Source of the DNA: Blastococcus sp. LR1
GTDB lineage: Bacteria > Actinomycetota > Actinomycetes > Mycobacteriales > Geodermatophilaceae
DNA: 64,000 nt
Assembly (NCBI RefSeq): GCF_020166105.1
Contig: NZ_JAIUJY010000006.1
Coordinates: 124,001 to 188,000 of the forward strand
Direction of reading: 5' to 3'
Under the pieces are notes generated by a model. It had not been told where the DNA came from. It ran no database searches and saw only the letters and a list, made by a program, of their open reading frames with translations. Positions 10,450 to 37,546 of the stretch are shown here, piece after piece. Both the position numbers and the translations under genes were made by a program. Position 1 is the first letter of the stretch. The number at the start of each line of letters is the position of its first letter.

Positions 10450-10554
10450 ACCGAGTCCCCCTCGCGAACGGGCGAGCCACGGGCGACGTCGCCGCTGACA
10501 TGACTGTCCTCGCCCGCCGACGATTTGGGAACTCGATCGGTCGCAGGAGTCAGC

Positions 10555-12009
10555 TCAGCAGCGCATCGGATCCGGCGGGGCCTGCTCGTGGAGCCACGGT
10601 GGGTCAGGCTCGGCGTCGTAGCACCAGCCCGGCGGAGAAGTGGTGCGCTCGACGCCGGTGGGCGTGCGGACAATCAGGCGGCCGTCGTCGAGGAGTTCGA
10701 AGTGCCAGCCTCGGGCGAACGTCTTGAGGCGGTGGTGCCTGCGGCACAAGCAGCAGAGGTTCTCGCAGGACGTCGCGCCGCCGTCGGCGTGTGCGATGAC
10801 GTGGTCGATGTCGAGTCGGCCGGGGCGGCGTCGGCAGCCGGGCATGCGGCAGTGGCGGTCGCGGACCTCCAGGTACCGCTGCTGTTCGGCGGTGGGCCGA
10901 TAGGCGGAGGTGGCGCGCGGGGAGCGGAGGCCTGGCCCGCTGCACGCACAGCGACCGGCGCCGCGGGCGAGTTCGCGAGGGCTGGCTACCGCGATCAGGC
11001 GCCCGGTCGCGGGGTCGCCGATGGCCACGTGCACGGATCCGCCGGCCGGACCCTCCCCGACGCCGAGGAAGTCCAGCTGCTCGAGGAGCTGGCGGCATTC
11101 GGCGGCGGTGACGACCTCGCCGGCGATCTCGGCCGCTGGCTGGGGAGCGCCGGTCGCGGTCGCATCGCGGAGCGAGGACAGCGGGGCGTGGATGACGAGT
11201 CTTGCGGTCACCGACGGCCGGGAGGTGTCCCACGGCCGCAGGATGAGGTCGCGCGCGACGGCGGCGCGGATGACGCCCATGGGGCGGGTGTCGCCGTCGG
11301 CGCGCAGCATCTGGGCGTACTGGTCGATCGTGTCGACGCAGGCGGCAGAGTCGGCCAGAGGGAGGTCGATGACCACTTGTCCGAGTCCGTCACCGGTGGG
11401 GCGATGGGTGACGTTGGCGTGCCGGGCGGCTTCTTCCCGTCGCTTGTCCAGTGCCTCTGCGTCGAGCTTGGCGATGAGTCGGCGCACGCGCTGGCGCAGC
11501 AGGGGCACGGTGAGCTTCTCGGCGGATGGGAGCACCTGCTGCTCGATCTCGTCGATGACGGCCTGTTTCACCGGGGCGAGCAGTTCGACGAGCGCGCGCA
11601 TCTTCCGGACGTCGATCAGGCCGTCGTACAGCGCGTTCCAGGTACCGCGGAGCTTCGTCGTCAGCACGATCGATTCGGCGGCGAGGTTCTCGGCTTCGAT
11701 CTCGGTGCAGTTGCGGAGCATCGCCAGCTCGGGCACGAAGGTCTCGGAGACCGCCGCGAGAGCTGGGCGCTTGCGCAGTCGTGAGTCGTGGCCCGGGCCG
11801 CCCCTCGTGCCGAACTCGGCGTCCCGCTGGATGTGCCGGCGGCGGGCGAGGGCGGCGACCGAGGCGGCCAGCTCGGCTGCGTAGCGGGCGGCGCGGGCAT
11901 CGGCGGCCCAGATGTCGGCGACGAGTTCGATGTCGCCGGCGGAGGGCTCCAGATCCTCGAGCGTGACGAGCAGCGGCTCGCCCTCGCTCGGGAGCTGGTC
12001 GAAGTCCAT
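10555..12009 (-). CDS. DUF222 / 13E12-type HNH endonuclease
   Basis: A 484-residue member of the actinobacterial 13E12 repeat family. Residues about 25-340 form the helical DUF222 region; the C-terminal third carries the HNH nuclease fold (DRHCRMPGCRRRPGRLDIDH, then ENLCCLCRRHHRLK). The Cys pairs bind zinc and DIDH/HHRLK supply the His and Asn/His active-site positions. These genes are multicopy and mobile-like in actinomycetes, often with many paralogues per genome, and their role is unknown. This copy is full length and undisturbed. ATG start at 12009. Confidence 0.85.
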   Translation of the reverse strand: MDFDQLPSEGEPLLVTLEDLEPSAGDIELVADIWAADARAARYAAELAASVAALARRRHIQRDAEFGTRGGPGHDSRLRKRPALAAVSETFVPELAMLRNCTEIEAENLAAESIVLTTKLRGTWNALYDGLIDVRKMRALVELLAPVKQAVIDEIEQQVLPSAEKLTVPLLRQRVRRLIAKLDAEALDKRREEAARHANVTHRPTGDGLGQVVIDLPLADSAACVDTIDQYAQMLRADGDTRPMGVIRAAVARDLILRPWDTSRPSVTARLVIHAPLSSLRDATATGAPQPAAEIAGEVVTAAECRQLLEQLDFLGVGEGPAGGSVHVAIGDPATGRLIAVASPRELARGAGRCACSGPGLRSPRATSAYRPTAEQQRYLEVRDRHCRMPGCRRRPGRLDIDHVIAHADGGATSCENLCCLCRRHHRLKTFARGWHFELLDDGRLIVRTPTGVERTTSPPGWCYDAEPDPPWLHEQAPPDPMRC

Positions 12010-12953: not shown

Positions 12954-13525
12954 CCCAGATCGAGCGCCTCGACTAGCCAGGAATCGACCTCGGCGGAGTA
13001 CGCGAGCGTGATTCCGGAAATGATGTTGGCGATTTCAGGTAAACCGTCATCGATGGGCTGCCCCTCGGCGTCGACGCGCTTCACCGCCGCCTGTCGAAGT
13101 CCAAAGCCCACCGTCGCCTCGTCTCCGTCCAAGCGTGGCTCGGTGACATCGTTCAGGGACAACTCGCCGCCGACATATCGGGCTGCTGCTGCGGCCGTCT
13201 CGTCGTACGTCCGCGCGATGCGAAGGCATCCCTGACAGTCGGGTCCGAGGGCCCTGATCGGTTGACCGTCCAACAGCTCGCGCTGCCGATTAAGCAGCTC
13301 TACGTAGTACCGCAGGAACGCCTCTGCACCCGCCGCGTCCTTGGTGCGGGCCTCGTCGGGGACCGGGAAGTCCTTCGGCCCGAGCGGCGGGAGCGAGTCG
13401 GTGGTCTCGGCGGCGGCCGTCGGCACGGTGTCGCTGGCTTCCTGCTTCTCCGAGCACCCGCTCAGGACCACCCCCGCCACGACGGCGACGAGCACGGTGC
13501 GACGCAGTCCCCGAAGATCACGCAC
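12950..13525 (-). CDS. DUF6318-like lipoprotein, cassette copy A
   Basis: A 191-residue lipoprotein. After RGLRRTVLVAVVAGVV comes the lipobox LSGC, then a short Ala/Thr/Pro-rich spacer and a globular domain (LPPLGPKDFPVPDEARTKDA...AEAFLRYYVELLNRQ, with a CQGC pair near residue 100). This layout resembles the actinobacterial DUF6318 family of unknown function. The domain beginning with GAEAF is similar in size to NTF2-like folds. It is the first gene of a two-gene unit with the secreted PKD-like gene, to which it is coupled by ATGA. Its first 65 residues match the paralogue at 14560-15138 closely; the rest diverges strongly. Start GTG at 13525. Confidence 0.75.
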   Translation of the reverse strand: MRDLRGLRRTVLVAVVAGVVLSGCSEKQEASDTVPTAAAETTDSLPPLGPKDFPVPDEARTKDAAGAEAFLRYYVELLNRQRELLDGQPIRALGPDCQGCLRIARTYDETAAAAARYVGGELSLNDVTEPRLDGDEATVGFGLRQAAVKRVDAEGQPIDDGLPEIANIISGITLAYSAEVDSWLVEALDLG

Positions 13526-13636
13526 CGCGGCAGACTACGCAGGACCGGGCAGCATCCGTTCCGGATCTGTGGACGGGGGCGGCGTCACCGCCGGAACGGG
13601 TGAACCCATCGAGTCGCTCGAGAGCACTACTGCGAA

Positions 13637-14563
13637 TCAGTCGAAGGGGTTGGTGAGCTCTGTTCGGGCTTGGAGGACGTCGAAGGTGACCGGTGGGCCG
13701 TCGGTGGTTGTGGTGCCGGGGACATCGGCGGGTGCACTGCCGTCGACGGTGAAGGTCGCGCCCCAGGTGACCGTCAGGTAGGCGGTGTAGCTGCCGGAGC
13801 GGTAGTCGTGCTCGATGGTGTGGTCGGGGTAGGGCTGGCCGGGGTCGGTGGTGACGATCTGGCCGGTGGCGTCGCCGGTGTGCCAGGTGAATTGCTGGGC
13901 GGTGGCTTCGATGGTGACGGTGAAGCCGCGGATGTCGACGGTGAAGGTCTGGGTGGTGGGGGAGTCGGTGTAGAAGATGACCGGCAGTCCTGCGAGGCCG
14001 TCGCCGGGTGGCTGGTGCTGGGTGACCAGCGTGGGCAGCGGGAGCTGCTGGAAATAGCTGAACACCTCCTCAGGCGACGGCGCAGGGTTGAGCTCGGTGA
14101 TGTCGAAGCACCCTTGATCCGCGCGTCCCCAGAACCCGACGGGGTCCCCAGGTCGGAGCCCGGGACCCACCAGTGTTTCTTGGCCGTCCGCCGAAGGAGC
14201 CGCCGTGAGGTCTGCGCGAACCAACGGTTGCTGCTCCAGAACCAAGTACCGGATCACCCGGCCGGGCTCCTCGGGGCACTGGCGAAAGTCGCTGGGGGAG
14301 CACGCGCCTGCGGCTTCGTCGTGAATCACGCACAGATGACGGAATCGCCACTGGTAGTCGGGAATCTGGGGACGACCGACCAGAACCCGGCCCGCCTGGT
14401 CAAGCGTCATCGAGATGGAAGCGGCCCCACCGCCGAGCCCCGTCTCGAGGCAGTTCGGCCTAAAAATCGGACAGTCGGCGGACGCGGAGCCAGCCGGCAC
14501 TAGCACCCACGCCGTCGCGACCATGGCAACCAGGCAGGTGCGCAGAAGCCGCAACGGCGTCAT
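13637..14563 (-). CDS. Secreted PKD-like protein, cassette copy B
   Basis: A 308-residue exported paralogue of the gene at 12048-12953. The signal peptide is MTPLRLLRTCLVAMVATAWV with a likely cut after SASA; several Cys follow in the N-terminal domain and a PKD-like beta domain closes the protein. A longer frame exists, but the ATG at 14563 is preferred because it forms the same ATGA overlap with the upstream lipoprotein as in copy A. The C-terminal 120 residues differ from copy A at only a few positions (for example TAQTF/TTQTF and ending TNPFD/TDPFD); the N-terminal half is only loosely similar (shared DEA.GACS.DFR.CP pattern). Confidence 0.75.
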   Translation of the reverse strand: MTPLRLLRTCLVAMVATAWVLVPAGSASADCPIFRPNCLETGLGGGAASISMTLDQAGRVLVGRPQIPDYQWRFRHLCVIHDEAAGACSPSDFRQCPEEPGRVIRYLVLEQQPLVRADLTAAPSADGQETLVGPGLRPGDPVGFWGRADQGCFDITELNPAPSPEEVFSYFQQLPLPTLVTQHQPPGDGLAGLPVIFYTDSPTTQTFTVDIRGFTVTIEATAQQFTWHTGDATGQIVTTDPGQPYPDHTIEHDYRSGSYTAYLTVTWGATFTVDGSAPADVPGTTTTDGPPVTFDVLQARTELTNPFD

Positions 14564-15138
14564 CCGAAACTCAGCCCGACTACCAGCCAGCACTTCTTAT
14601 CCGTCGACCAATCGAGCCCGATGGCCGACGGAAGTCGATCAACCGCAGCTGCATCGGTGCCGTCGACGGGCTCGCCGCTGGGTTCGACCAGCGCGCCTGC
14701 CTCGATCCGGGCAATGAACGACAGGTTGGCGCGGTCGTCGGAGAGCGCTGTCCCGAATTCGCCAGCGATTGACAGCTCGCCACCCTCGAAGCGGCGATTT
14801 GCGGCAGCAGCTTCGTCCAGATCCCGCGCGATGCGGAGACACTCCTGGCAGTCCGGCCCGAGTGTTCGCAGCGGCTCACCGGCCGGTACATCCTGCTGTC
14901 GGCGCAAGAGATCGATGTAATACCGGGTGAACGCTTCGGCGCCGGCGGCGTCCTTGGTGCGGGCTTCGTCGGGGACCGGGAAGTCCTCCGGCCCGAGCGG
15001 CGGGAGCGACTCGGTGGTCTCGGCTGCCGCCGTCGGCACGGTGTCGCTGGCTTCCTGCTTCTCCGAGCACCCGCTCAGGACGACCGCCGCCACGGCGGCA
15101 GCGAGCACGGTGCGACGGAGCCCACGAAGATCACGCAC
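14560..15138 (-). CDS. DUF6318-like lipoprotein, cassette copy B
   Basis: A 192-residue lipoprotein paralogous to 12950-13525. The GTG at 15138 gives the same N terminus (VRDLRGLRRTVL, lipobox LSGC); the longer upstream frame has no signal sequence and is ignored. Residues 1-67 are nearly the same as copy A (SEKQEASDTVPTAAAETT...), with a conserved C..C pair (CQEC near residue 100). Beyond that the sequence diverges, ending KCWLVVGLSFG. It is divergent from the acyl-CoA ligase gene; both promoters must lie in the 140 bases 15139-15278. Confidence 0.75.
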   Translation of the reverse strand: MRDLRGLRRTVLAAAVAAVVLSGCSEKQEASDTVPTAAAETTESLPPLGPEDFPVPDEARTKDAAGAEAFTRYYIDLLRRQQDVPAGEPLRTLGPDCQECLRIARDLDEAAAANRRFEGGELSIAGEFGTALSDDRANLSFIARIEAGALVEPSGEPVDGTDAAAVDRLPSAIGLDWSTDKKCWLVVGLSFG

Positions 15139-15278
15139 CGTCGCAGAGTACGCACGCAGGTGCACCGCCGGTTTCGTATCTGTGGACAGACGCGTCTGGT
15201 CCGCCGGAACGGGTGAACGGCGCAGGCGCAGAATGCGGAGAGCCGGCCGAACACGGTCGGCAGGACGGGGGAGCACAC

Positions 15279-16802
15279 GTGCACGCGGCAGACCACAGTC
15301 CCTTCGACACCAGCGGCATCGAGGTCGGCGCGGACGGCATCAAGCGCTACGCGGGGCTGCCCGAGAACGTCGTCACCCTGCTCCAGAAGACCGTCGAACG
15401 ACACGGGGGCCGGACGGCGATCGTCGAGCTCGGCGGCGCGTCCATCACCTACGCCGAGCTGTGGGACTGCGCCAGAAGGGTCGCGGGTGGCCTGCGGAAC
15501 AACGGCGTGAACCCCGGCGACCGGGTCGCCATCAACCTGCCGAACGGTCTCGACTGGGTGCTGGCGTTCTGGGGTGGCCACCTCGTCGGCGCCGTCGTCG
15601 TCCCGATGAACACCCGCCTCTCGGAGGCCGAGGCCGACTACATCCTGGCCGACTGCGCAGCCGCCTACGTGGTGAAGCCGGGGGCGCCGCTGCCCGACGG
15701 CGAGCCGGTCGAGCTCCCGGCACCGGGCCGCACCGACGTCGCCGCGCTCTTCTACACATCGGGCACGACCGGCCGGCCCAAGGGCGCGATGGTCACCCAG
15801 GAGAACTTCGTGACCACGGTCGAGAGCGTCGTCCGCTGCCGCGAACTGCCGCGCCATCCCGACCAGGCGACGCTGATCTCGGTGCCGCTGTTCCACGTCA
15901 CCGGCTGCTGCTCGCAGTTCATGACGCAGGTCGCCCTCGGCGGGACCTCGGTGATCATGCCGCGGTTCGAGCCGGCCGCCTTCCTCGCCGCCATCCCCGA
16001 GCACCGCATCACGCTCGTCACCAGCGTGCCGACGATCTACGAGCTGGCGCTGCGCCACCCGTCCTTCGCCACCACCGACGTGTCGAGCGTCCGCACCCTC
16101 AGCTACGGCGGCGCCCCGATGGCACCCGAGCTGGTGCACCGGCTGCTGACGGCCTTCCCGAACGCCCGGCTCGGCAACGGGTTCGGGCTGTCGGAGACGA
16201 CGGCGATGGCCACCTTCCTCCCGCACGAGTACGCCGCCACCCACGCCGACGCCGTCGGGTTCGCGACGCCGGTCAACGACCTCCGGCTGCACGCCCCGGA
16301 CCCGGTCACCGGGGTGGGGGAGTTGCTCGTGCGCGGGTCCAACGTCGTCGCCGGGTACTGGGGCGCTCCGGAGAAGACGGCGGAGACGATCGTCGACGGC
16401 TGGCTGCGCACCGGCGACCTCGCGACCATCACCGACGGCATCGTGCGGATCGTCGACCGCGCCAAGGACATGATCAACCGCGGCGGCGAGAACGTGTACT
16501 CGGTCGAGGTCGAGAACGCACTGGCCGAGCACCCGGACGTCGTCGAGGTCGCGGTGGTCGGCGTCCCGGACCCGGTGATGGGGGAGAAGGTCGGCGCCGT
16601 CGTCCTGCCCCGGCCGGGTGCCGACGTCGAGAACCTCGTCCCGTCGCTGGTGGCGTTCGCCTGCGACCGGCTCGCCGACTTCAAGACGCCGCAGTTCGTG
16701 CGCGTGATCGACGGGCCGCTGCCGCGCAACGCCGGCGGCAAGGTCCTGAAGACGGCGCTGCGCGACGCCGGGGGCTGGACCGAGGTGGTGCGCCTCCGAT
16801 AG
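15279..16802 (+). CDS. Acyl-CoA ligase (class I adenylate-forming)
   Basis: A 507-residue ANL-superfamily acyl-CoA synthetase. The phosphate-binding loop is YTSGTTGRPKGAM; the A5 motif is GNGFGLSETT, the A7 motif GWLRTGDLAT, the hinge VDRAKDMINRGGENVYSVEVE and the catalytic Lys is in LPRNAGGKVLK. It would activate a carboxylic acid (fatty, aromatic or steroid side chain) with ATP and load it on CoA. Start: a GTG at 15279 with GGGGGAG just upstream is preferred to the longer frame from 15213. The F420-type oxidoreductase 53 bases downstream is probably in the same transcript. The substrate cannot be read from sequence by eye. Confidence 0.88.
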   Translation: MHAADHSPFDTSGIEVGADGIKRYAGLPENVVTLLQKTVERHGGRTAIVELGGASITYAELWDCARRVAGGLRNNGVNPGDRVAINLPNGLDWVLAFWGGHLVGAVVVPMNTRLSEAEADYILADCAAAYVVKPGAPLPDGEPVELPAPGRTDVAALFYTSGTTGRPKGAMVTQENFVTTVESVVRCRELPRHPDQATLISVPLFHVTGCCSQFMTQVALGGTSVIMPRFEPAAFLAAIPEHRITLVTSVPTIYELALRHPSFATTDVSSVRTLSYGGAPMAPELVHRLLTAFPNARLGNGFGLSETTAMATFLPHEYAATHADAVGFATPVNDLRLHAPDPVTGVGELLVRGSNVVAGYWGAPEKTAETIVDGWLRTGDLATITDGIVRIVDRAKDMINRGGENVYSVEVENALAEHPDVVEVAVVGVPDPVMGEKVGAVVLPRPGADVENLVPSLVAFACDRLADFKTPQFVRVIDGPLPRNAGGKVLKTALRDAGGWTEVVRLR

Positions 16803-27190: not shown

Positions 27191-29365
27191 TCAATCGTCG
27201 TCGTCGGCGACGGCTTGCTCGTCGGACATGTCGATGTCGCGCTGCTCGCGATAGTCCCGGAACACGTGCAGCAGGCTGCGGCGGGATGAGGGGTCGACCA
27301 ACCAGAAAGCCCAGCCGTTCTCGGCAGTGCCAGAGACGGCGCGCGCCGCTCCGGAAGGCGTGGCGTGGCGCACACCGTCGACGTCCAGGGCACCGTCGTG
27401 CAGCACAGTGGCCGTACGACCTTCGACGCGCTTGCGCTTGGCGTACAGGAGCGTGCCCTCAGTGAGCAGTCCGGCAGTGATCAGATCCGCAACGTTCGCT
27501 TGACGCATCGGTCGCTTGGCAGGTCGCTCGACTACTGGCCTGTGGCCTTCGGGGACGGGCCACACCTCCAGCAGGTCGTCGACCAGCGATTCGCCACGAG
27601 CCTCGATGGTCGCCTCGTCCCAACCGTCGCGTCCGGTGTCACGAAGGTGCCTGTTCAACATGAGGACGTCGTGAGCTTCCAGTGCCGCTCGCTTGCCGCC
27701 GTCGCCGAGCCATGGCCCGTTGGACACCTTGCTGTTGAGCTTCCCGGTGAGCAACGTGAGGTTGCCGAGGGTGTCGACCAGCGCCTCCCTTTCCGCGGCC
27801 GAGATGCCCGAGGTCAGCGGCCAATGCTGCTGCCACTTGCGCGGCAGGATGTGCTCGATGGCGTACGAGCCGCGCGCTACCCGTTCGCCGCCCAGGCCCG
27901 ATGTGTTGTCACGCCACCCACGCCGGTGGTCCTCGACCCCTTCCAGCACCATGCGCACGCGGGCCCGCGACAGCCGGCGATAGGCGGCGAGCGTGGCGAG
28001 CTCATCCCGCACCTCGCTGTCGGCCGGCCAGTATCGATTCGCTCCCGCCTGCCCGGCGAGATACTTCTGGACCAGATCCCCGGCCTGCTCCCGGCCCTGC
28101 GCCCGCACGTGGGTGATCAGCTCACCGACGAGCTGGGTGTAGGACTTCGACGTAGCGCGTACCAGCATCCGACGGACCATCCAGCTTTCGACGACGCCGA
28201 GCGCCTTCTGCACCTGATCGGCTGGAACGGGTGATTCATCGGGGTCGAGAAGGAAGAGGACGAAGGGCTTGATGACTTCGCTCTCCAGGACGCCAGATCG
28301 ATAGGCGAAGAGGCCCAGTCGGTCGATGGGACCCGTGAGCTGTCCTGCTCGGTCGACGAACTCGCGGTACACGAGAGAGGCCCTGTGCACCTGAGCGAGC
28401 AGTTCTGGCATGGACAGGCCGGATTCGAAGTCGGCGTATCGCTTGAACCGTTGGAAGACCTCTCGCGCGAGGATCTCCTGCCCCGTCCGCGAGATGAGCC
28501 ACTGATTCAAGAACATCGATGAGCGCTGATGCTTCACGCGCCCCGCGCTGATCTCGGCCTCCCAGAACCCCGTCTCGAAGTCCTTCCAATGTTTCTCATA
28601 GGCGGCTTGCACATCCGCGCCAGACTCGCTGAGGCGCTGGAAGATGAAGTTCTTGATGAGATCGGCCGCCGTGAGAACGGCACCGCGGGCGTTCAGCGTC
28701 TCGAAGATCTCCTGCGCGTTCTCTTCGGCCGTGAGGTCTATGACGACGAGCTGCATGAGTTCGCGCACGGCGCGCTCGAGGGCGGCGGCACGGACGGCTG
28801 GCTCTTCGGCGCCCGCCATGAGCCAGTCGCGGGCGCTGGTTCCGAAGAACTTGTGTGCTTGAACCAGTCGGCTGTCGCGGTGCTGGAGCTGCTCGTACGC
28901 AACCGGAGGTCGGGCCGCCATGACCTCGTGGAACGACGGCAAATCCTTGGTGGTCGGACGGACCTTCAGTCCGTCGTCCTGCTGCTCCCAGTAAGCCTCG
29001 TCGTTGACGACGAGGCTCTCGATCCGCTTCGCGGGCTGAAGCGCGCCCACTCCCACCAGTTCGGCGTGCAGGGCGTCGAGCAGCAACTGGAGCGTGGTCA
29101 AGCGTTGCTGACCGTCGATGACGGTGCGCTCCTGCATGGTGCCCATCTGGTTCTGGATCTGCTGCACCACGATCGCGCCGAGGAAGTGCGGCTGCTGCTT
29201 GTCGTGCGGGTTCGCCAGGACGCGCTCGGCCACCCGGACCACATCGCCCCACAGCGGCTCCCACTGATCGTCCTCGTTCCAAACGTACGGACGCTGGAAC
29301 AGTGGAACGACGAGACGCTGAGGCTGCATGAAGATCGACTGCGGGGTTCGGACCTGCGTCTCCAT
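27191..29365 (-). CDS. GmrSD-type DUF262-DUF1524 protein with RAMA-like C terminus
   Basis: A 724-residue fused restriction protein. The N-terminal DUF262 domain has the ParB-like VPLFQRPYVW motif near residues 20-29 and the hydrolase loop IDGQQRLTTLQ near 83-93 (the DGQQR motif needed for NTP use in GmrS). A helical middle follows. DUF1524, an HNH-like nuclease, covers about residues 520-590 with IEHILPRKW and LGNLTLLTGKLNSKVSN. The last 100 residues contain ADLITAGLLTEGTLLYAK and TPSGAARAVSG...NGWAFW, the pattern of RAMA domains, which occur in restriction and methylase proteins. GmrSD enzymes cut modified phage DNA, so this is probably a type IV restriction enzyme with RAMA as a possible base-modification reader. 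Stop-proximal DDDD tail. ATG start. Confidence 0.85.
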   Translation of the reverse strand: METQVRTPQSIFMQPQRLVVPLFQRPYVWNEDDQWEPLWGDVVRVAERVLANPHDKQQPHFLGAIVVQQIQNQMGTMQERTVIDGQQRLTTLQLLLDALHAELVGVGALQPAKRIESLVVNDEAYWEQQDDGLKVRPTTKDLPSFHEVMAARPPVAYEQLQHRDSRLVQAHKFFGTSARDWLMAGAEEPAVRAAALERAVRELMQLVVIDLTAEENAQEIFETLNARGAVLTAADLIKNFIFQRLSESGADVQAAYEKHWKDFETGFWEAEISAGRVKHQRSSMFLNQWLISRTGQEILAREVFQRFKRYADFESGLSMPELLAQVHRASLVYREFVDRAGQLTGPIDRLGLFAYRSGVLESEVIKPFVLFLLDPDESPVPADQVQKALGVVESWMVRRMLVRATSKSYTQLVGELITHVRAQGREQAGDLVQKYLAGQAGANRYWPADSEVRDELATLAAYRRLSRARVRMVLEGVEDHRRGWRDNTSGLGGERVARGSYAIEHILPRKWQQHWPLTSGISAAEREALVDTLGNLTLLTGKLNSKVSNGPWLGDGGKRAALEAHDVLMLNRHLRDTGRDGWDEATIEARGESLVDDLLEVWPVPEGHRPVVERPAKRPMRQANVADLITAGLLTEGTLLYAKRKRVEGRTATVLHDGALDVDGVRHATPSGAARAVSGTAENGWAFWLVDPSSRRSLLHVFRDYREQRDIDMSDEQAVADDDD

Positions 29366-29975: not shown

Positions 29976-30722
29976 GTGGCCGGAACTGGCGAGGTGCTGC
30001 TCGAGGTGGATGGCGGCGTGGCGATCGTGACGTTGAACGCCCCGGACCGGCGCAACGCGCTGACGCCCGGGATGGCCGACGAGCTGATCGCGACGTTCGA
30101 CGAGGTGGACGCCAAGCCGGAGGTCGGCGCGTTGGTCATCCGCGGCGTCGGCAAGTCGTTCTGCGCCGGCGGCGACGTCGCGACGCTGACCTCGGCGGGC
30201 AAGGACCCTGCGGCCCCGGACGCCTACGAGGGCATGGGCAAGATCTACGACTCCTTCTACCGGCTGGGGCAGGTCCGCGTGCCCACGGTTGCCGCGGTGC
30301 GTGGCTCCGCGGTCGGCGCCGGCATGAACATGCTGCTGGCGACCGACCTGCGGATCGTGGCGAAGGACGTCCGGCTGCTGGCCGGCTTCCTCAAGCGCGG
30401 CATGCACCCGGGGGGCGGCCACTTCGTGATTCTGTCGCGCCTGATCGGCCGCGAGGCAGCGGCTGCGATGGCGCTGTTTGGTGAGGAGATCAACGGCGAC
30501 AAGGCGGTCGAGCTCGGCCTAGCCTGGGAGGCGCTGGACGACGCCGCGGTCGAGAACCGTGCGATCGAACTGGCTCAGCGCGTCTCTGCCGACCCCGAGC
30601 TGGGCCGGATCGCGGTGAGCAACTTCCGCAAGGAGGTCGTCAACGGGGCGATCCCGTGGGACGTCGCCATGCAGTCCGAGCGCCCTGCCCAGATGTGGTC
30701 GATGCGCCGATCGGCAGGCTGA
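29976..30722 (+). CDS. Enoyl-CoA hydratase/isomerase family protein
   Basis: A 248-residue crotonase-fold protein. The oxyanion-hole motifs are LVIRGVGKSFCAGGDV and AAVRGSAVGAGMNMLLATDLRI. The usual catalytic Glu positions are occupied differently (FLKRGMHPGGGHFVILSRLIG), so hydratase activity is not certain; isomerase, hydrolase or decarboxylase activities are alternatives. It would act on an acyl-CoA in the cytosol. It interrupts an otherwise restriction-rich stretch and has the high GC of the core genome, which suggests it is an original resident. GTG start at 29976. Confidence 0.85.
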   Translation: MAGTGEVLLEVDGGVAIVTLNAPDRRNALTPGMADELIATFDEVDAKPEVGALVIRGVGKSFCAGGDVATLTSAGKDPAAPDAYEGMGKIYDSFYRLGQVRVPTVAAVRGSAVGAGMNMLLATDLRIVAKDVRLLAGFLKRGMHPGGGHFVILSRLIGREAAAAMALFGEEINGDKAVELGLAWEALDDAAVENRAIELAQRVSADPELGRIAVSNFRKEVVNGAIPWDVAMQSERPAQMWSMRRSAG

Positions 30723-31986: not shown

Positions 31987-33132
31987 GTGAGCAGTTCCGT
32001 CCGCAACGCCGCCGAAGCCGGGCGCGCAGATTCGGAGCCTGTCGCAGATCGAGCCAAGCTCGGCTCAGCGTCGATCAGTCAGCTCGATGACTGGGGCAAG
32101 CAGCTCCTCGAGCCGAGCCTCACGTTCACACCGGGTGATGCGCGCAGGACGGGACTTCCGGACGACTCCGTCGATCTCATCGTTACCTCGCCGCCCTACT
32201 GGAACAAGCGCGACTACGGCCACTCGAACCAGATCGGTCTCGAACCAACCGCCGACGCCTATGTTAACTCGATCATGGCGTGCCTAGAGGAGTGGCGGCG
32301 GGTGCTACGGCCGCATGGCTCCGTGTTTCTGAACGTCGGCGACACCTACTTCAATAAGTCCCTTCTTGGTATTCCGGGACAGATCGAGTGGCAGGCCGCT
32401 AAGGGCAAGTGGCTGATCCGCAACCGCATCATCTGGGCCAAGGAGTCCGGAATGCCGGAACCGGCCAAGAATCGACTCGCCAACCGACATGAGTACATCA
32501 TTCATCTGACTCTCAAGCCGACCTACTATTACGACCTTGTTGGTTACGCCGATGAGTTCGGTAACGGTGCCAACCCGGGCGACGTTTGGACAATCAAGCC
32601 TGAGCGCAACATGGGCCTGCACCTCGCGCCGTATCCGCGCGAACTGGTGCGTCGGGCCATCAAACTTGCGGCACCAACGCAGGTCTGCTCGACGTGCAGC
32701 ATCCCGCGCAGACGGGTGATCGAGCGCACGGCGGAACTCGACCCGTCCCGTCCGCAAGCCCGACGCGCGATGGAACTGGCCAAGGAAAAGGGCCTGACCC
32801 CCGAGCACATTCGCGCCATCCAAGCCTTCGGAGTCTCGGATGTGGGGAAGGCCACCAAGTTCCAGAATGGCACCGGTCGCAACAGCGCTGAGGTCCAGCG
32901 GCTTGCCGCTGAGGCCAAGATCGCCCTCGGCGGCTACTTTCGCGAGTTCACTTTCGCCAAGAAGCACACGGTCGGCTGGACCGACTGCGGTCACGGGACA
33001 CCGGGCCGCGGGGTTGTCCTGGATCCGTTTGCGGGGACGGGAACGACGCTGAGGACGGCCATCGAGGAAGGCCGCGATGCAATTGGCGTCGACCTGGTGA
33101 ACTGGATGGATCAGCCGGAAGTCGGTGCCTGA
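31987..33132 (+). CDS. Beta-class DNA methyltransferase (TSPPYW)
   Basis: A 381-residue site-specific DNA methyltransferase. The catalytic motif IV TSPPYW is at residues 67-72, and the AdoMet motif I DPFAGTGTT is near residue 355, so motif order is IV then I (beta class). The SPPYW form usually means N4-cytosine methylation, though some N6-adenine enzymes carry it. Between them lies the target-recognition part with a zinc-ribbon-like pair (CSTC, then DCGH). The gene is convergent with and overlaps by 22 bases the mcrC-like gene, which suggests that the two halves form one restriction-modification locus. AAGGAG at 31973-31978 fits the GTG start. Codon choice is less GC-extreme than the flanking genome. 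Confidence 0.9.
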   Translation: MSSSVRNAAEAGRADSEPVADRAKLGSASISQLDDWGKQLLEPSLTFTPGDARRTGLPDDSVDLIVTSPPYWNKRDYGHSNQIGLEPTADAYVNSIMACLEEWRRVLRPHGSVFLNVGDTYFNKSLLGIPGQIEWQAAKGKWLIRNRIIWAKESGMPEPAKNRLANRHEYIIHLTLKPTYYYDLVGYADEFGNGANPGDVWTIKPERNMGLHLAPYPRELVRRAIKLAAPTQVCSTCSIPRRRVIERTAELDPSRPQARRAMELAKEKGLTPEHIRAIQAFGVSDVGKATKFQNGTGRNSAEVQRLAAEAKIALGGYFREFTFAKKHTVGWTDCGHGTPGRGVVLDPFAGTGTTLRTAIEEGRDAIGVDLVNWMDQPEVGA

Positions 33133-34511
33133 TCGATGGTGAGCCGCGCCAGGCCGGCCACCACCCGCGCCATGTCAGCTAGCGCTGCGTCCGTTCGTGT
33201 GTCGGATGAAAGGTCGAGCCGGTAGTCGTAGACGTCGATCGACCGCACGCGGCCGACGTAGAGCAAGCCTTTGCTGCCCCTGATCCATGGGTGGATCAAC
33301 AGGGTGAAGCTGAGGCCGTATCGCAGCGCGTAGGTGACGGCTTGCTCGACTTCGTCACGGTCGGGCAACGTGTCGGTGTCGACGGCCGCCCCGTGGATCG
33401 TGTTCTTGACTTCAGCGATCAGTGGGAACCTGCCGTCCAGCGTCTTGAGCACCACATCCGGTTGCGCTTTGCCGGCATCGCGGCTGGCTACCGCCCGCAT
33501 CGGCGTGCCGAATGGGGCCGGCAACGGAACCGGTACGTCGTACAGGTCGACCTTGCCGTCCGTGTTGCCGTCCAGCACTGCTACCGGCCAGCCTTGGGCG
33601 GCAGCGTGCTTTGCCAGGCTGACGCGGACGAAGTTCTCGAACAGCTTGTTGGTGTCGATCAGCAGCGAGCCGAGCTGGACATCACTGCCGCCGAGATCCA
33701 GGGCCAGGCCAACGCCGCGCAGGATCGCCACGGATAGGTCGAGCACCGGGCGGTAATAGGCACGCGGATCGGGTAGCGGGGCCAGCCCGAGCACCTGGGC
33801 GTCCTCCAAGAAGCGATAGCCAGGATCATCACTGACTTCCTCGAAGGCGTGGAACTGGCCGGCCAGTCGCGCGGCCTTGGATCGGTCCCCTCTGCGTGGC
33901 TGTGACCGTGTCTTCGTCAGGTGCTGGTGCACAACGTTCATTGCCGCCCGCACGCAGCGGTTGACGGGCGTATCGACAGTGCGCTCGAACCAGGAGTAGG
34001 CCGCCTTGTTCGACACGCTTCGGGCGGCGAACCGCTGAACGGTTCTCGTGAAGTCGACACGGCCATGTGGAAGATGCCCCTCGCCTTCGCGCCGTTCGTA
34101 GGCGCGCAGCAGGCCTGCGTCCAGCAAGTCATCGACGTAGCTCAGCAAAGCGTCCGTGTAGACATCCATCGCCCAGTCGTCCGCCGTGCCGCGAGTGGAA
34201 TAGTCGCGGAAGGCAGTCAATGGAAGCACGCTGTGGCCGGTCTCGATGACCATTCGCGTCAGGTTGGCGATCGGCACCCGGGGCTTGACGCGGACGACGA
34301 CGTGATCGTTAAGCGAAATGACGCCGACATACGACGTGGCCTGCAGTCGCAGCACGCCCTTCTTGAAGGTGGCGCGCAGAATATCGCGGCCGTCGATCTC
34401 CGAGCTGAATTTGGTCTGGTGGCCTTCGGTCACCCACAAGCTCGTGTCGATATCGACGTAGCCGTACTCGACGCAGTCGATCACGCTGACGCCGTTGCCC
34501 GGCACCGTCAT
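33111..34511 (-). CDS. mcrC: McrC-like restriction nuclease subunit
   Basis: A 466-residue McrC-family protein. The N-terminal part (YGYVDIDTSLWVTEG, then LRLQATSYVGVISLNDHVVV) is the McrC DUF2357-like barrel that stimulates McrB GTP hydrolysis. The nuclease core near residues 350-371 shows QPDVVL...LIAEVKNT, i.e. the D...E-x-K triad of PD-(D/E)xK enzymes. It would cut DNA when the McrB ring translocates. The start is the ATG at 34511, which overlaps the mcrB stop as ATGA; the longer upstream frame is ignored. Its 3' end overlaps the convergent methyltransferase gene by 22 bases. Confidence 0.9.
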   Translation of the reverse strand: MTVPGNGVSVIDCVEYGYVDIDTSLWVTEGHQTKFSSEIDGRDILRATFKKGVLRLQATSYVGVISLNDHVVVRVKPRVPIANLTRMVIETGHSVLPLTAFRDYSTRGTADDWAMDVYTDALLSYVDDLLDAGLLRAYERREGEGHLPHGRVDFTRTVQRFAARSVSNKAAYSWFERTVDTPVNRCVRAAMNVVHQHLTKTRSQPRRGDRSKAARLAGQFHAFEEVSDDPGYRFLEDAQVLGLAPLPDPRAYYRPVLDLSVAILRGVGLALDLGGSDVQLGSLLIDTNKLFENFVRVSLAKHAAAQGWPVAVLDGNTDGKVDLYDVPVPLPAPFGTPMRAVASRDAGKAQPDVVLKTLDGRFPLIAEVKNTIHGAAVDTDTLPDRDEVEQAVTYALRYGLSFTLLIHPWIRGSKGLLYVGRVRSIDVYDYRLDLSSDTRTDAALADMARVVAGLARLTIDQAPTSG

Positions 34512-35482
34512 GCAATGCCTTCCGGTGGTTCCGTTGGCGTTCGCACCGCAGGGGTCTCCGTGGCCACTCCCGGCGCGTCTAAAACGTGCTGCCACGCCGT
34601 TTCTAGACTCGCCCGCATGTTCTCATCGCGCCGGAAGGCCCGCAGTACAAGATGCTTGAGCTGGTACTCCCAGATATCAGTTAGCGTCGCTTCGTCACTG
34701 GCCGAGGAGAAATAGGCGTGCCCGACCGCCGCGGCAGCATTCTTATTCGCATGGCCGTTGATCCGATTGAACCAGCCGATGACGCGCCGCTTGAGGGTCT
34801 CGTCCATGCCGTTGTTCGTTAGGATCTCATTCAGCAACTCCGCGTCAGGGTCCATTGTGATTTTCGCAAATCGGCGTTCGAAGGCGGCATCAACCTCATC
34901 GACGCCGCGGTCAAAGGGATTCATCGTAGCAATGATGACAAGGTTGGCCGGCACCTTGATCTCGTCACCATTCGCGATGTTGAATGGCAGCTGACGTTTC
35001 GTCCGCTCTACATAAGTGAGCGCTTCGCCGAAGACGCGACCCACGTCCGCGCGCGATAACTCGTCGATTACCAGAACATACTTGTTGTCTGGGTCCTTAT
35101 CGGCGGCATCTACCAGCTGAAGAAACGGCCCTTCCTTGTATGTAAACCCGTGTACCGCAGGCTGGAATCCCAACATAAAATCCTCATACTGGTAGCTCGC
35201 GTGGAATTGAACGAAGCGGTAGCGGCGCTTGTCGTGGTCTGTCATGACCTGGGCGGTCGTCGCGGCGAAGAAGGACTTGGAGGTGCCGGGCGGTCCGGAA
35301 AGAATCACGCCGCCATAGACGTCGGCCAGGCGGATGATCTCTCGAATCAGCGGGTGGTCGGCCGGAATCTCGGGGGCATCGGGCGCCGATGACGCATGAC
35401 TGGCTGCCGCCGTCGCCATTACACCAATGCCGAGGTGGTCGGCCGTCAGGATCCTTACGCTGGGTACGAGTTGCTCAAACAT
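34508..35482 (-). CDS. mcrB: McrB-type AAA+ GTPase without DNA-binding domain
   Basis: A 324-residue AAA+ motor. Walker A is GPPGTSKS (residues 63-70), Walker B VLVIDEL (136-142), and the McrB signature is MNPFDR (187-192) followed by VDAAFERRF. It is short: canonical McrB has a separate N-terminal DNA-recognition domain, and here only about 50 residues precede the motor. The DNA reader must therefore come from elsewhere, most simply from the adjacent 35475-36128 product, with whose gene it overlaps by eight bases. McrB hydrolyses GTP to drive the McrC nuclease. ATG at 35482. Confidence 0.9.
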   Translation of the reverse strand: MFEQLVPSVRILTADHLGIGVMATAAASHASSAPDAPEIPADHPLIREIIRLADVYGGVILSGPPGTSKSFFAATTAQVMTDHDKRRYRFVQFHASYQYEDFMLGFQPAVHGFTYKEGPFLQLVDAADKDPDNKYVLVIDELSRADVGRVFGEALTYVERTKRQLPFNIANGDEIKVPANLVIIATMNPFDRGVDEVDAAFERRFAKITMDPDAELLNEILTNNGMDETLKRRVIGWFNRINGHANKNAAAAVGHAYFSSASDEATLTDIWEYQLKHLVLRAFRRDENMRASLETAWQHVLDAPGVATETPAVRTPTEPPEGIA

Positions 35483-36128
35483 CAGCTGGCTCCTCGATGA
35501 GGACCGCGTTCAGATCCGCCGGCTCAAACCAGGTGGGCGGCTCTTCAGGTTCCGTAGTAGTAAACAGCCGGGTGAACTCGTTGTTGGTTTCTGGCGGGTA
35601 GTCGAACTTAATGCGAAACCCAGCTATCAGGTCCGCAGCGCTCGCTTCCCCGGACAAAACGAAACCGTCGTTGCGGAGGAAGTAGGCGCCCATCGCTAGG
35701 GCCGAGACTGACCGGTTGTAGAGCATCTGCTGGTGTGCCAGATCCACGTGGTTGTCCGGCATGGCGTACGCGCTCTCGTTCGCACTGAGCCAGCTGCCGC
35801 TAGCCAGGCGTCGGATCGAACCCGGCGACCAACTGCCCGGGATATTGGAAGCGCGCCAGAAGGTGGACAGTGGCGTTCCAGTCCGCTTCCCACGGTCGAT
35901 CAGCGGAAAGTAGTAGGGCTTGGTCGGGTTACCTGGCATCTCAATGAGCGCCAACAGCTCATCGGACGAGGCCGACGCCTCCGTCAGTCTTCCGACTCGG
36001 GACTGCTTGCGCAGGTAGAGGTACATCACGAAGGTTGGGTGGAGCGGTTGTGCTCCGAGGGTGTCGATGGCCCAGCGCACAGCCCCCTTGCTCAGAACAT
36101 GGGTCGGCGTGGCACTGTCGTCAGGCAT
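35475..36128 (-). CDS. Unknown first gene of the mcrBC-like operon
   Basis: A 217-residue soluble protein that I do not recognise. It starts MPDDSATPTHVLSKGAVRWA, has an aromatic-rich centre (KPYYFPLIDRGKRTGTPLSTFW) and a segment with conserved-looking WSPGSIRRLASGSWLS, and ends in an acidic tail (TTTEPEEPPTWFEPADLN). No AAA+ or nuclease motif. It is the promoter-proximal gene of the operon and overlaps mcrB by eight bases. Since this McrB lacks a DNA-binding domain, this product is the natural candidate for the recognition subunit; that is inference. A TACGCT hexamer (36140-36135) ends six bases before the ATG, so the transcript may be leaderless. Confidence 0.75.
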   Translation of the reverse strand: MPDDSATPTHVLSKGAVRWAIDTLGAQPLHPTFVMYLYLRKQSRVGRLTEASASSDELLALIEMPGNPTKPYYFPLIDRGKRTGTPLSTFWRASNIPGSWSPGSIRRLASGSWLSANESAYAMPDNHVDLAHQQMLYNRSVSALAMGAYFLRNDGFVLSGEASAADLIAGFRIKFDYPPETNNEFTRLFTTTEPEEPPTWFEPADLNAVLIEEPADV

Positions 36129-36538: not shown

Positions 36539-37546
36539 ATGGAACTCGACAGCAAGGGGTTGGGTCGGCTGCGCCGCGTGGCCAACGCTCGCGACGTATG
36601 GACCTCCGAATCTGGAGACTTCACTCCCTGGCTGGCCGAGAACTTGGACGTCCTGGCCGACGAGCTGGGCATGTCACTGACGTTGGTAGCGCAGGAGGTG
36701 CCGGTCGGCGAGTTCCGGTTGGACGTCCAGGCTCGGACATCCGACGGCCGAGTCGTCATCATCGAAAACCAGCTCGAGCGAACTGATCACGGGCATTTAG
36801 GACAGCTATTGGTGTACGCGTCGGGGCTCGAGGCCGCCGCAGTCGTGTGGGTCGCCCCGCGGTTTCGCGACGATCACCGGCGCACACTGGACTGGCTGAA
36901 TGAGCGCACCGATACCGGAGTCCACTTCTTCGGGGTCGAGGTTGCCGTCGTCCAGATCGGCGAGGCCGGACCTCGCGCGCCCGTTTTCGAGGTCGTCGCC
37001 CGCCCGAACAATTGGCAGAAGGGTGTCAAGGAGGCTGGGACGGTTGGTGGCAGGGGGGCCGGAAGTGAGGCCGGGGGCATCAATGCCCTTCGGCAGGACT
37101 TCTTTGTCGAAGTTCTTGCCGACGTAGTTACACAGCGGCCCGGCATCAGAATGCCGTCGCGAGGCACGCTCAATTGGCTGTCGTTCGCCGCTGGGCCCTG
37201 GGGCAACTGGGCGCTAGTTCTGGCTAACGAGCTGCGTGTCGAGGCCTACATCGACAGCGGCCACCAAGGCGTGAACAAGGCTCTCTTCGACGATCTCCAT
37301 GTTGAGGCGAGTGCATGGCAGGCCAAGATCGGCCATGCCTTGCGCTGGGAGCGACTCGACGAAAAGCGAGCAAGTCGAATCGCTGCGTATCAGCCGATCG
37401 GTGATCTGAGCGACGACGGTGAACGCGAGCAGCTACATGCCTGGGCGGTTATGACGGTTCTTGCCATGTATGACGGCATGAATCAGGTGCTTCGAACACG
37501 GGCGCGTGAGCTCCGCGAGACCGTCAAGCTGCAGGAGTCGGAGTGA
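36539..37546 (+). CDS. DUF4268 protein with PD-(D/E)xK-like core
   Basis: A 335-residue protein. The first 130 residues have the layout of a nuclease fold: FTPWLAENLDVLADELGMSL, then FRLDVQARTSDGRVVIIENQ, where D (in LDVQA) and E-N-Q stand in for D...E-x-K, followed by HLGQLLVYASGL. The remainder (about 180-335) matches DUF4268 in general form (WLSFAAGPWGNWALVLANEL; HALRWERLDEKRASRIA). DUF4268 genes often occur in phage-defence neighbourhoods. Here it sits directly beside the mcrBC-like operon and shares its lower GC. ATG at 36539 with an AAGGA RBS. The Q instead of K in the active site may reduce or change activity, although the same substitution is common in this subgroup. Confidence 0.75.
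   Translation: MELDSKGLGRLRRVANARDVWTSESGDFTPWLAENLDVLADELGMSLTLVAQEVPVGEFRLDVQARTSDGRVVIIENQLERTDHGHLGQLLVYASGLEAAAVVWVAPRFRDDHRRTLDWLNERTDTGVHFFGVEVAVVQIGEAGPRAPVFEVVARPNNWQKGVKEAGTVGGRGAGSEAGGINALRQDFFVEVLADVVTQRPGIRMPSRGTLNWLSFAAGPWGNWALVLANELRVEAYIDSGHQGVNKALFDDLHVEASAWQAKIGHALRWERLDEKRASRIAAYQPIGDLSDDGEREQLHAWAVMTVLAMYDGMNQVLRTRARELRETVKLQESE

Follow-up and report, generated by a model that had tools for sequence, protein, structure and literature searches.

We analysed a 64,000-nucleotide stretch of the genome of Blastococcus sp. LR1 (contig NZ_JAIUJY010000006.1, positions 124,001 to 188,000; hereafter the window), in which positions 31987–36128 hold a cassette of four genes: a methylase on the forward strand and, on the reverse strand, mcrC, mcrB and a gene for a protein of 217 residues that we call N217. 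The first-pass annotation of this DNA had described an McrBC-like operon with its own methylase; the three genes that it described are present, but the end that it gave, 36128, is the start of the fourth gene, N217, which it left undescribed. The cassette is real, mobile and conserved, and is a variant of McrBC-like restriction-modification (RM); its main novelty is the detached subunit N217, whose family had no match in the libraries that we searched. The features are as follows.

31987–33132, forward strand: amino-methyltransferase of the SPPYW type, the modification gene (381 amino acids; PF01555, PDLC03316)
33111–33132, shared by both strands: tail-to-tail overlap of methylase and mcrC, 22 bp common to both genes
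33111–34511, reverse strand: McrC-like nuclease subunit with PD-(D/E)xK motif (PF10117)
34508–35482, reverse strand: McrB-like AAA+ subunit with NPFD (NxxD) signature (AAA_5; alignment with Escherichia coli McrB)
35426–35458, reverse strand: McrB N-terminal motif VRILTADHLGI, residues 9–19 (by eye and by matrix)
35475–36128, reverse strand: N217, 217 residues, the fourth cassette gene (adjoins mcrBC in ten loci; fused in L049)

All four frames are open in the window, and the methylase converges with mcrC and overlaps it, as had been stated. The listed mcrC frame starts at 34595; we prefer the ATG at 34511 because of the gene starts in two close relatives (L034 and L035) and because it gives a 4-bp overlap with mcrB. 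Chance can be ruled out for this arrangement, since it is conserved in other taxa.

Fifteen loci of the methylase family were compared: the window, three plasmids (L031–L033), four genomes (L034–L037), three IMG/VR contigs (L047–L049) and four loci, L133, L134, L135 and L136, from genomes G493, G806, G876 and G216, respectively. A locus was included if most of its methylase aligned at roughly 48% identity or above, and gene content was called by profile search of open frames; this left out 177 of 180 plasmid records (40 listed), three of the seven loci of one search, 78 of at least 80 viral-contig matches and the weaker genome matches (94 of 96 genomes). N217, McrB and McrC stand beside the methylase in ten of the 15 loci (the window, L034, L035, L036, L037, L047, L049, L133, L134 and L135). 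The hosts include the Actinomycetota Phytohabitans flavus (L034), Herbihabitans rhizosphaerae (L035) and Streptomyces marokkonensis (L037), and an alphaproteobacterium, Limimaricola soesokkakensis (L036). Two haloarchaeal plasmids (L032 and L033) carry N217 without McrBC, and neither N217 nor McrBC was found in the other three loci, namely L031 (an S. halstedii plasmid) and L048, each examined over 8 kb on either side of the methylase, and L136, whose contig has 8,036 bases. A convergent order is seen in seven of the ten cassettes, the window included, L036, L047 and L135 being co-directional; methylase and mcrC overlap by 22 bp in the window, L034 and L035, by 4 bp in L037, 14 in L133 and 33 in L049, and are separated by a 3-bp gap in L134. 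When the four genes are compared across the ten loci, their identity matrices are strongly correlated (Mantel r 0.95–0.98, p 0.0001 each), a correlation to which the three close loci (window, L034 and L035) contribute.

Taking N217 as the query lessens the bias of starting from the methylase. All five loci reached in this way carry the methylase: one among 396 Actinomycetota genomes (the window's own), one viral locus (L047), two plasmids, and one among 295 genomes of a single genus (G493; G806, which also bears N217, was possibly missed there). No N217 was found in plasmids with the window query, nor in phages with the L036 query. Thus the linkage in relatives on which the first-pass annotation had staked its reading holds from both starting points. 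Other McrB/McrC pairs were taken as controls (L042, L174, L175 and a second pair in L135); none has an N217 of its own, nor a close methylase of its own in the DNA examined, save for a weak 27.7-bit match in L175 and the L135 cassette itself. The second L135 pair (13238–16257; 613 and 393 amino acids) lies about 2 kb past the cassette. Methylases without restriction genes exist (L031, L048 and L136) and no N217-type restriction genes without a methylase were found, which is the pattern to be expected if unprotected restriction is harmful, and is typical of modification genes. The lone methylase of L048 (7977–9056), 71% identical, lies on a phage-like contig with DnaB-like helicase, primase and sigma genes nearby, and is possibly a counter-restriction gene. 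In L136 (1382–6860) the methylase is directly followed by a frame of 1475 residues with helicase domains and a DpdJ-like match, possibly another restriction partner of the methylase family.

The methylase matches N6_N4_Mtase of Pfam (PF01555, E 8.8e-36) and the type II methyltransferase model PDLC03316 of PADLOC (MTase_II, 601.7 bits). Its TSPPYW motif (residues 67–72) lies ahead of DPFAGTGTT (346–354), an order that we take to be that of the beta class. Motif IV is TSPPYW in nine of the ten cassettes and TSPPYF in L135, hence of the SPPY form throughout. Because this form is common to most bacterial N4-methylcytosine (m4C) methylases (PMC8885841), the product is likely to be m4C; solved relatives of the enzyme include both adenine-specific and cytosine-N4 enzymes. 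The McrC-like protein (PF10117, E 7.4e-17) belongs to a set in which the PD-(D/E)xK nuclease motif is kept in all ten cassettes. The McrB-like protein (AAA_5, E 2.8e-18) has a Walker A motif, GPPGTSKS, together with VLVIDEL and ATMNPFDRG, and aligns only with residues 183–422 of E. coli McrB, the AAA+ part (E 2.7e-35). The N-terminal DNA-binding domain of the E. coli protein is absent from it, and the 57 residues ahead of the AAA_5 match are too few for a B3 domain of the LlaJI type. Walker A is present in nine of the ten cassette McrBs; in L034 mcrB is apparently frameshifted near Walker A (10528–11567), possibly through a sequencing error, and the methylase is whole.

N217 matched nothing significantly in Pfam (window protein and 11 relatives, E up to 10: three single-member matches, the best at E 0.034), nor in PADLOC (window protein and three relatives), NCBIfam or PHROGs (window protein). 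A sequence search of the PDB with an N217 profile gave 1iuf as its only match, at E 0.23, which is not significant and was not used. Structure models were made of the window N217 (pLDDT 67.8) and of the L134 protein (pLDDT 86.5, pTM 0.86). Foldseek gave no match at E ≤ 0.001 for either model against the PDB, or for the window model against viral models; this lack of structural match does not show a new fold, and we assign none. Five polar residues invariant in 12 members (H30, N95, S104, R106 and R152) suggest a binding surface. In L049, N217 (residues 3–192) and the McrB part (207–505) form one fused protein. As McrB carries its DNA-binding domain ahead of the AAA+ part (PMC1459862), this fusion puts N217 at the position of that domain, which argues that N217 belongs to the restriction complex.

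A VRxLTxDDLGI-like motif opens the McrB-like proteins of the cassette. A motif matrix was built from ten of these proteins, on segments picked by eye, and 6,280 open frames were scored with it. The proteins of cytidine-deaminase fold that follow N217 in the haloarchaeal plasmids L032 and L033, which lie outside the matrix, score 21.0 and 26.5, compared with 6.5 for the next frame in these two loci (180 frames) and 17.4 for the best frame outside the family. None of 20,000 shuffles of either protein matched its score, and the second McrB/McrC pair of L135 is not among the 40 best scores. In the L049 fusion the motif sits between N217 and the AAA+ core. Taken together, these observations suggest that VRxLTxDDLGI accompanies N217 as a peptide for docking or linkage. 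Aligned with two plasmid-borne deaminase relatives, the L032 and L033 proteins keep CxxC and lack the CAE triad (SHD and RQT instead); the Pfam deaminase match is limited to L033 and weak (E 2.1e-4, under the cut-off), and viral contigs scanned with the pair gave no match. Because the triad of their relatives is missing, an adaptor role appears as likely as catalysis. We also considered that haloarchaea might restrict DNA by deaminating it, since the amine that a deaminase removes would be protected in m4C, but this idea was downgraded on the missing triad and the weak Pfam match. L032 (2737–10064) carries, in order, a PbeA-like gene (E 9.6e-228), a small gene, a PbeC-like gene (E 9.3e-220), another small gene, the methylase, N217 and the deaminase-fold protein; the neighbours in L033 differ and include an HSP90-like ATPase. 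It is conceivable, at somewhat less than an even chance, that N217 serves as an interchangeable reader of the site: accompanying a single family of methylases, it would dock on diverse defence machines by way of VRxLTxDDLGI, a short peptide at the N terminus of its partner. The partners would be McrB/McrC in bacteria and, in haloarchaea, a deaminase-fold protein beside PbeABCD-like or other genes.

The cassette was probably acquired horizontally, because McrC was not found in any of 22 congeners and because the G+C content at third codon positions (GC3) of the cassette genes is lower than in most neighbours (0.70–0.80 vs 0.89–0.97 in most neighbouring host-like genes). An McrC search of 60 genomes gave matches in two, the window's own and a weak one in G449; matches at 24–32% identity (G449 and two haloarchaeal plasmids) were classed as other McrBCs. 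To the left, the ECH gene (29976–30722) has a near full-length match at 85–90% in 17 of the 22 congeners, and the DNA around it is variable; in G397 (L145) the counterpart of the window from 43656 onwards comes within 0.7 kb after ECH. On the right, a long match to the flank occurs in just three of the 22.

Several known systems can be compared with the cassette. BsuMI of Bacillus subtilis has three restriction genes (ydiR, ydiS and ydjA), of which two are McrB/McrC-like, and two 5-methylcytosine (5mC) methylases. LlaJI, from the Lactococcus plasmid pNP40, pairs an McrB-like GTPase with an McrC-like nuclease and has methylation linked to them; DNA that is unmethylated is restricted by it in vivo, and its R1 carries the specific DNA-binding activity (PMC1459862). 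Its site is asymmetric, it has two methylases, and its site-reading B3 domain is fused to the GTPase (PMC12707154). Like LlaJI, the cassette has an McrB-like AAA+ protein beside an McrC-like PD-(D/E)xK nuclease, and a conserved methylase, but it has one SPPY amino-methylase in place of two 5mC methylases and, besides McrB, a separate N217. Since the asymmetric site of LlaJI needs two methylases, a single one suggests, by analogy, that the site methylated here is symmetric. PcaI (PcaRCI) of Pectobacterium carotovorum RC5297 combines one Dcm-like methylase with a two-subunit McrBC-like nuclease acting on unmethylated DNA (PMC8989522). It resembles the cassette in its single methylase, in its mobility and in having an McrBC-like nuclease for unmethylated sites (predicted for the cassette), but its methylase is Dcm-like and acts on CCNGG, and no third restriction subunit is described for it in the accessible part of that report (PMC8989522). 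The first-pass annotation had considered the single methylase a distinct arrangement, a claim that falls because PcaI already has one. E. coli McrBC, a type IV enzyme, shares the architecture of AAA+ protein and nuclease, as seen in the match to residues 183–422, but the cassette lacks the modified-base-binding N-terminal domain in McrB and has a cognate methylase. Finally, there are CxC and PbeABCD systems with circularly permuted N4 methylases, and MTaX1 (PF20296) is the methylase-associated domain there (PMC10853773). L032 resembles them through the PbeA- and PbeC-like genes that precede a methylase of the same family and N217, but those restriction genes are unlike McrBC and N217 does not match MTaX1. 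The identity of N217 with MTaX1 was rejected by sequence, none of 12 members matching at E up to 10 with the PF20296 model present in Pfam; a distant kinship is possible, as HMMER filters can hide weak matches. An association of McrB with methyltransferases is already known in general, because a census of McrB GTPases reports it as prevalent, in certain branches, and announces a separate publication (PMC11090510). Among the titles listed by our literature search, which covered subscription journals thinly, none dealt with an McrBC that combines an SPPY methylase with a detached third subunit. What is new here is the SPPY-type methylase, the detached N217 subunit and the VRxLTxDDLGI motif common to McrBs and haloarchaeal deaminase-fold proteins.

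Because of the linkage, the co-divergence, the methylase-only asymmetry, the intact motifs and the precedents of LlaJI and PcaI, we consider it probable that this is a horizontally moved RM cassette, in which the methylase protects and N217, McrB and McrC cut unmethylated DNA. From the sequences we infer such cutting, the binding of DNA by N217, the methylated base and the nature of the site. The methylase would mark one, probably palindromic, site of host DNA, most likely as m4C. N217, McrB and McrC would form one restriction complex driven by nucleoside triphosphates, in which N217 would read the unmethylated site, standing in for the N-terminal DNA-binding domain that McrB is without, the McrB ring would move on DNA and McrC would cut. 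Methylated self DNA would escape recognition. The protective methylase of LlaJI type, proposed by the first-pass annotation, is then the best reading in view of linkage and co-divergence, with restriction itself a prediction.

Several observations weigh against this interpretation. The linkage counts are biased towards the methylase, because 13 of the 15 loci were found through it; the exceptions are the window and L047, which is not among the viral-contig methylase matches listed. Three of the five loci reached from N217 (L032, L033 and G493) had already been reached through the methylase. Neither N217 model has a clear match to a DNA-binding fold (best VIA-align Z 2.0 and 2.4), the pI of N217 ranges from 4.7 to 9.0, and acidic residues outnumber K+R in eight of ten members. 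N217 is 21–31% identical to its counterparts in the seven distant loci, vs 55–60% for the methylase, and among the four genes it shows the lowest average conservation towards these loci; this gap counts against the proposal because both proteins should read one site. Lastly, the two haloarchaeal plasmids that carry N217 without McrBC indicate that N217 is not only an McrB part.

Some of these points would fit N217 being instead an adaptor, activator or inhibitor that docks via VRxLTxDDLGI, the site being read elsewhere, for example by the N-terminal part of McrC. Separate McrBs carry the motif close to their N terminus, as do the L032 and L033 deaminase-fold proteins, and in the L049 fusion it stands between N217 and the AAA+ core; the acidic excess and the lack of a recognized DNA-binding fold agree with such a role; but N217 takes the position of the DNA-binding domain of McrB in L049, and its invariant polar residues point to a binding surface for some ligand. 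We regard this alternative as a serious minority possibility, about one chance in a few. It is unlikely that the cassette is a type IV McrBC that cuts foreign modified DNA, with the methylase as an independent gene of the same island. Classical McrBC does act on modified DNA (PMC1459862), and defence-like genes (GmrSD-like and PDC-S11-like) cluster around the cassette, with unrelated systems standing side by side, but the four genes are linked and co-diverge, the methylase occurs in every N217-first locus, and the window McrB lacks the N-terminal region of its E. coli counterpart.

We give very little weight to two further explanations. An McrBC is known to kill its host in response to genome methylation (PMC2614495), and the complex might accordingly be imagined as a guard that monitors the mark made by the methylase and kills the cell upon loss of this mark or its alteration by an invader; the plain RM reading needs fewer steps, however, and no fifth gene common to the cassettes was noticed, the flanks not having been compared systematically. 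The cassette could also be a decaying remnant that is inactive in this strain. Its absence, judged by McrC, from the 22 congeners and its low GC3 speak for a recent arrival, and the L034 copy has a frameshifted mcrB, but the four window frames are open and the catalytic motifs that we looked for are intact.

The surroundings of the cassette hold other genes of interest. At 27191–29365 a defence-like neighbour is encoded, a GmrSD-like protein (GmrSD_N and GmrSD_C) that carries RAMA as its C-terminal domain, and directly beyond the cassette, at 36539–37546, lies a DUF4268 protein that PADLOC matches to its candidate PDC-S11 (E 3.5e-98). A small frame at 30656–31045 matches the phage-integrase domain DUF3701 below threshold (E 0.0031), and in the congener L141 a 71% DNA match to this frame comes after ECH. 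In L047 (1099–6625) the cassette adjoins a gene that we take to be integrase-like, itself located after one that is presumably dihydrouridine-synthase-like; this cassette is probably an integrated island.

In the strains that carry it, the cassette is likely to be a barrier to transformation. It would add a third, detachable subunit to RM systems of the McrBC type, and it gives the statement of the census, that McrB GTPases often occur beside methyltransferases (PMC11090510), a concrete case that can be tested. Should N217 prove to be a portable reader equipped with a docking peptide, this would account for the occurrence of one methylase family with unlike bacterial and archaeal restriction machines, and N217 would provide a small, separable handle on the targeting of McrBC-like motors to unmethylated sites.

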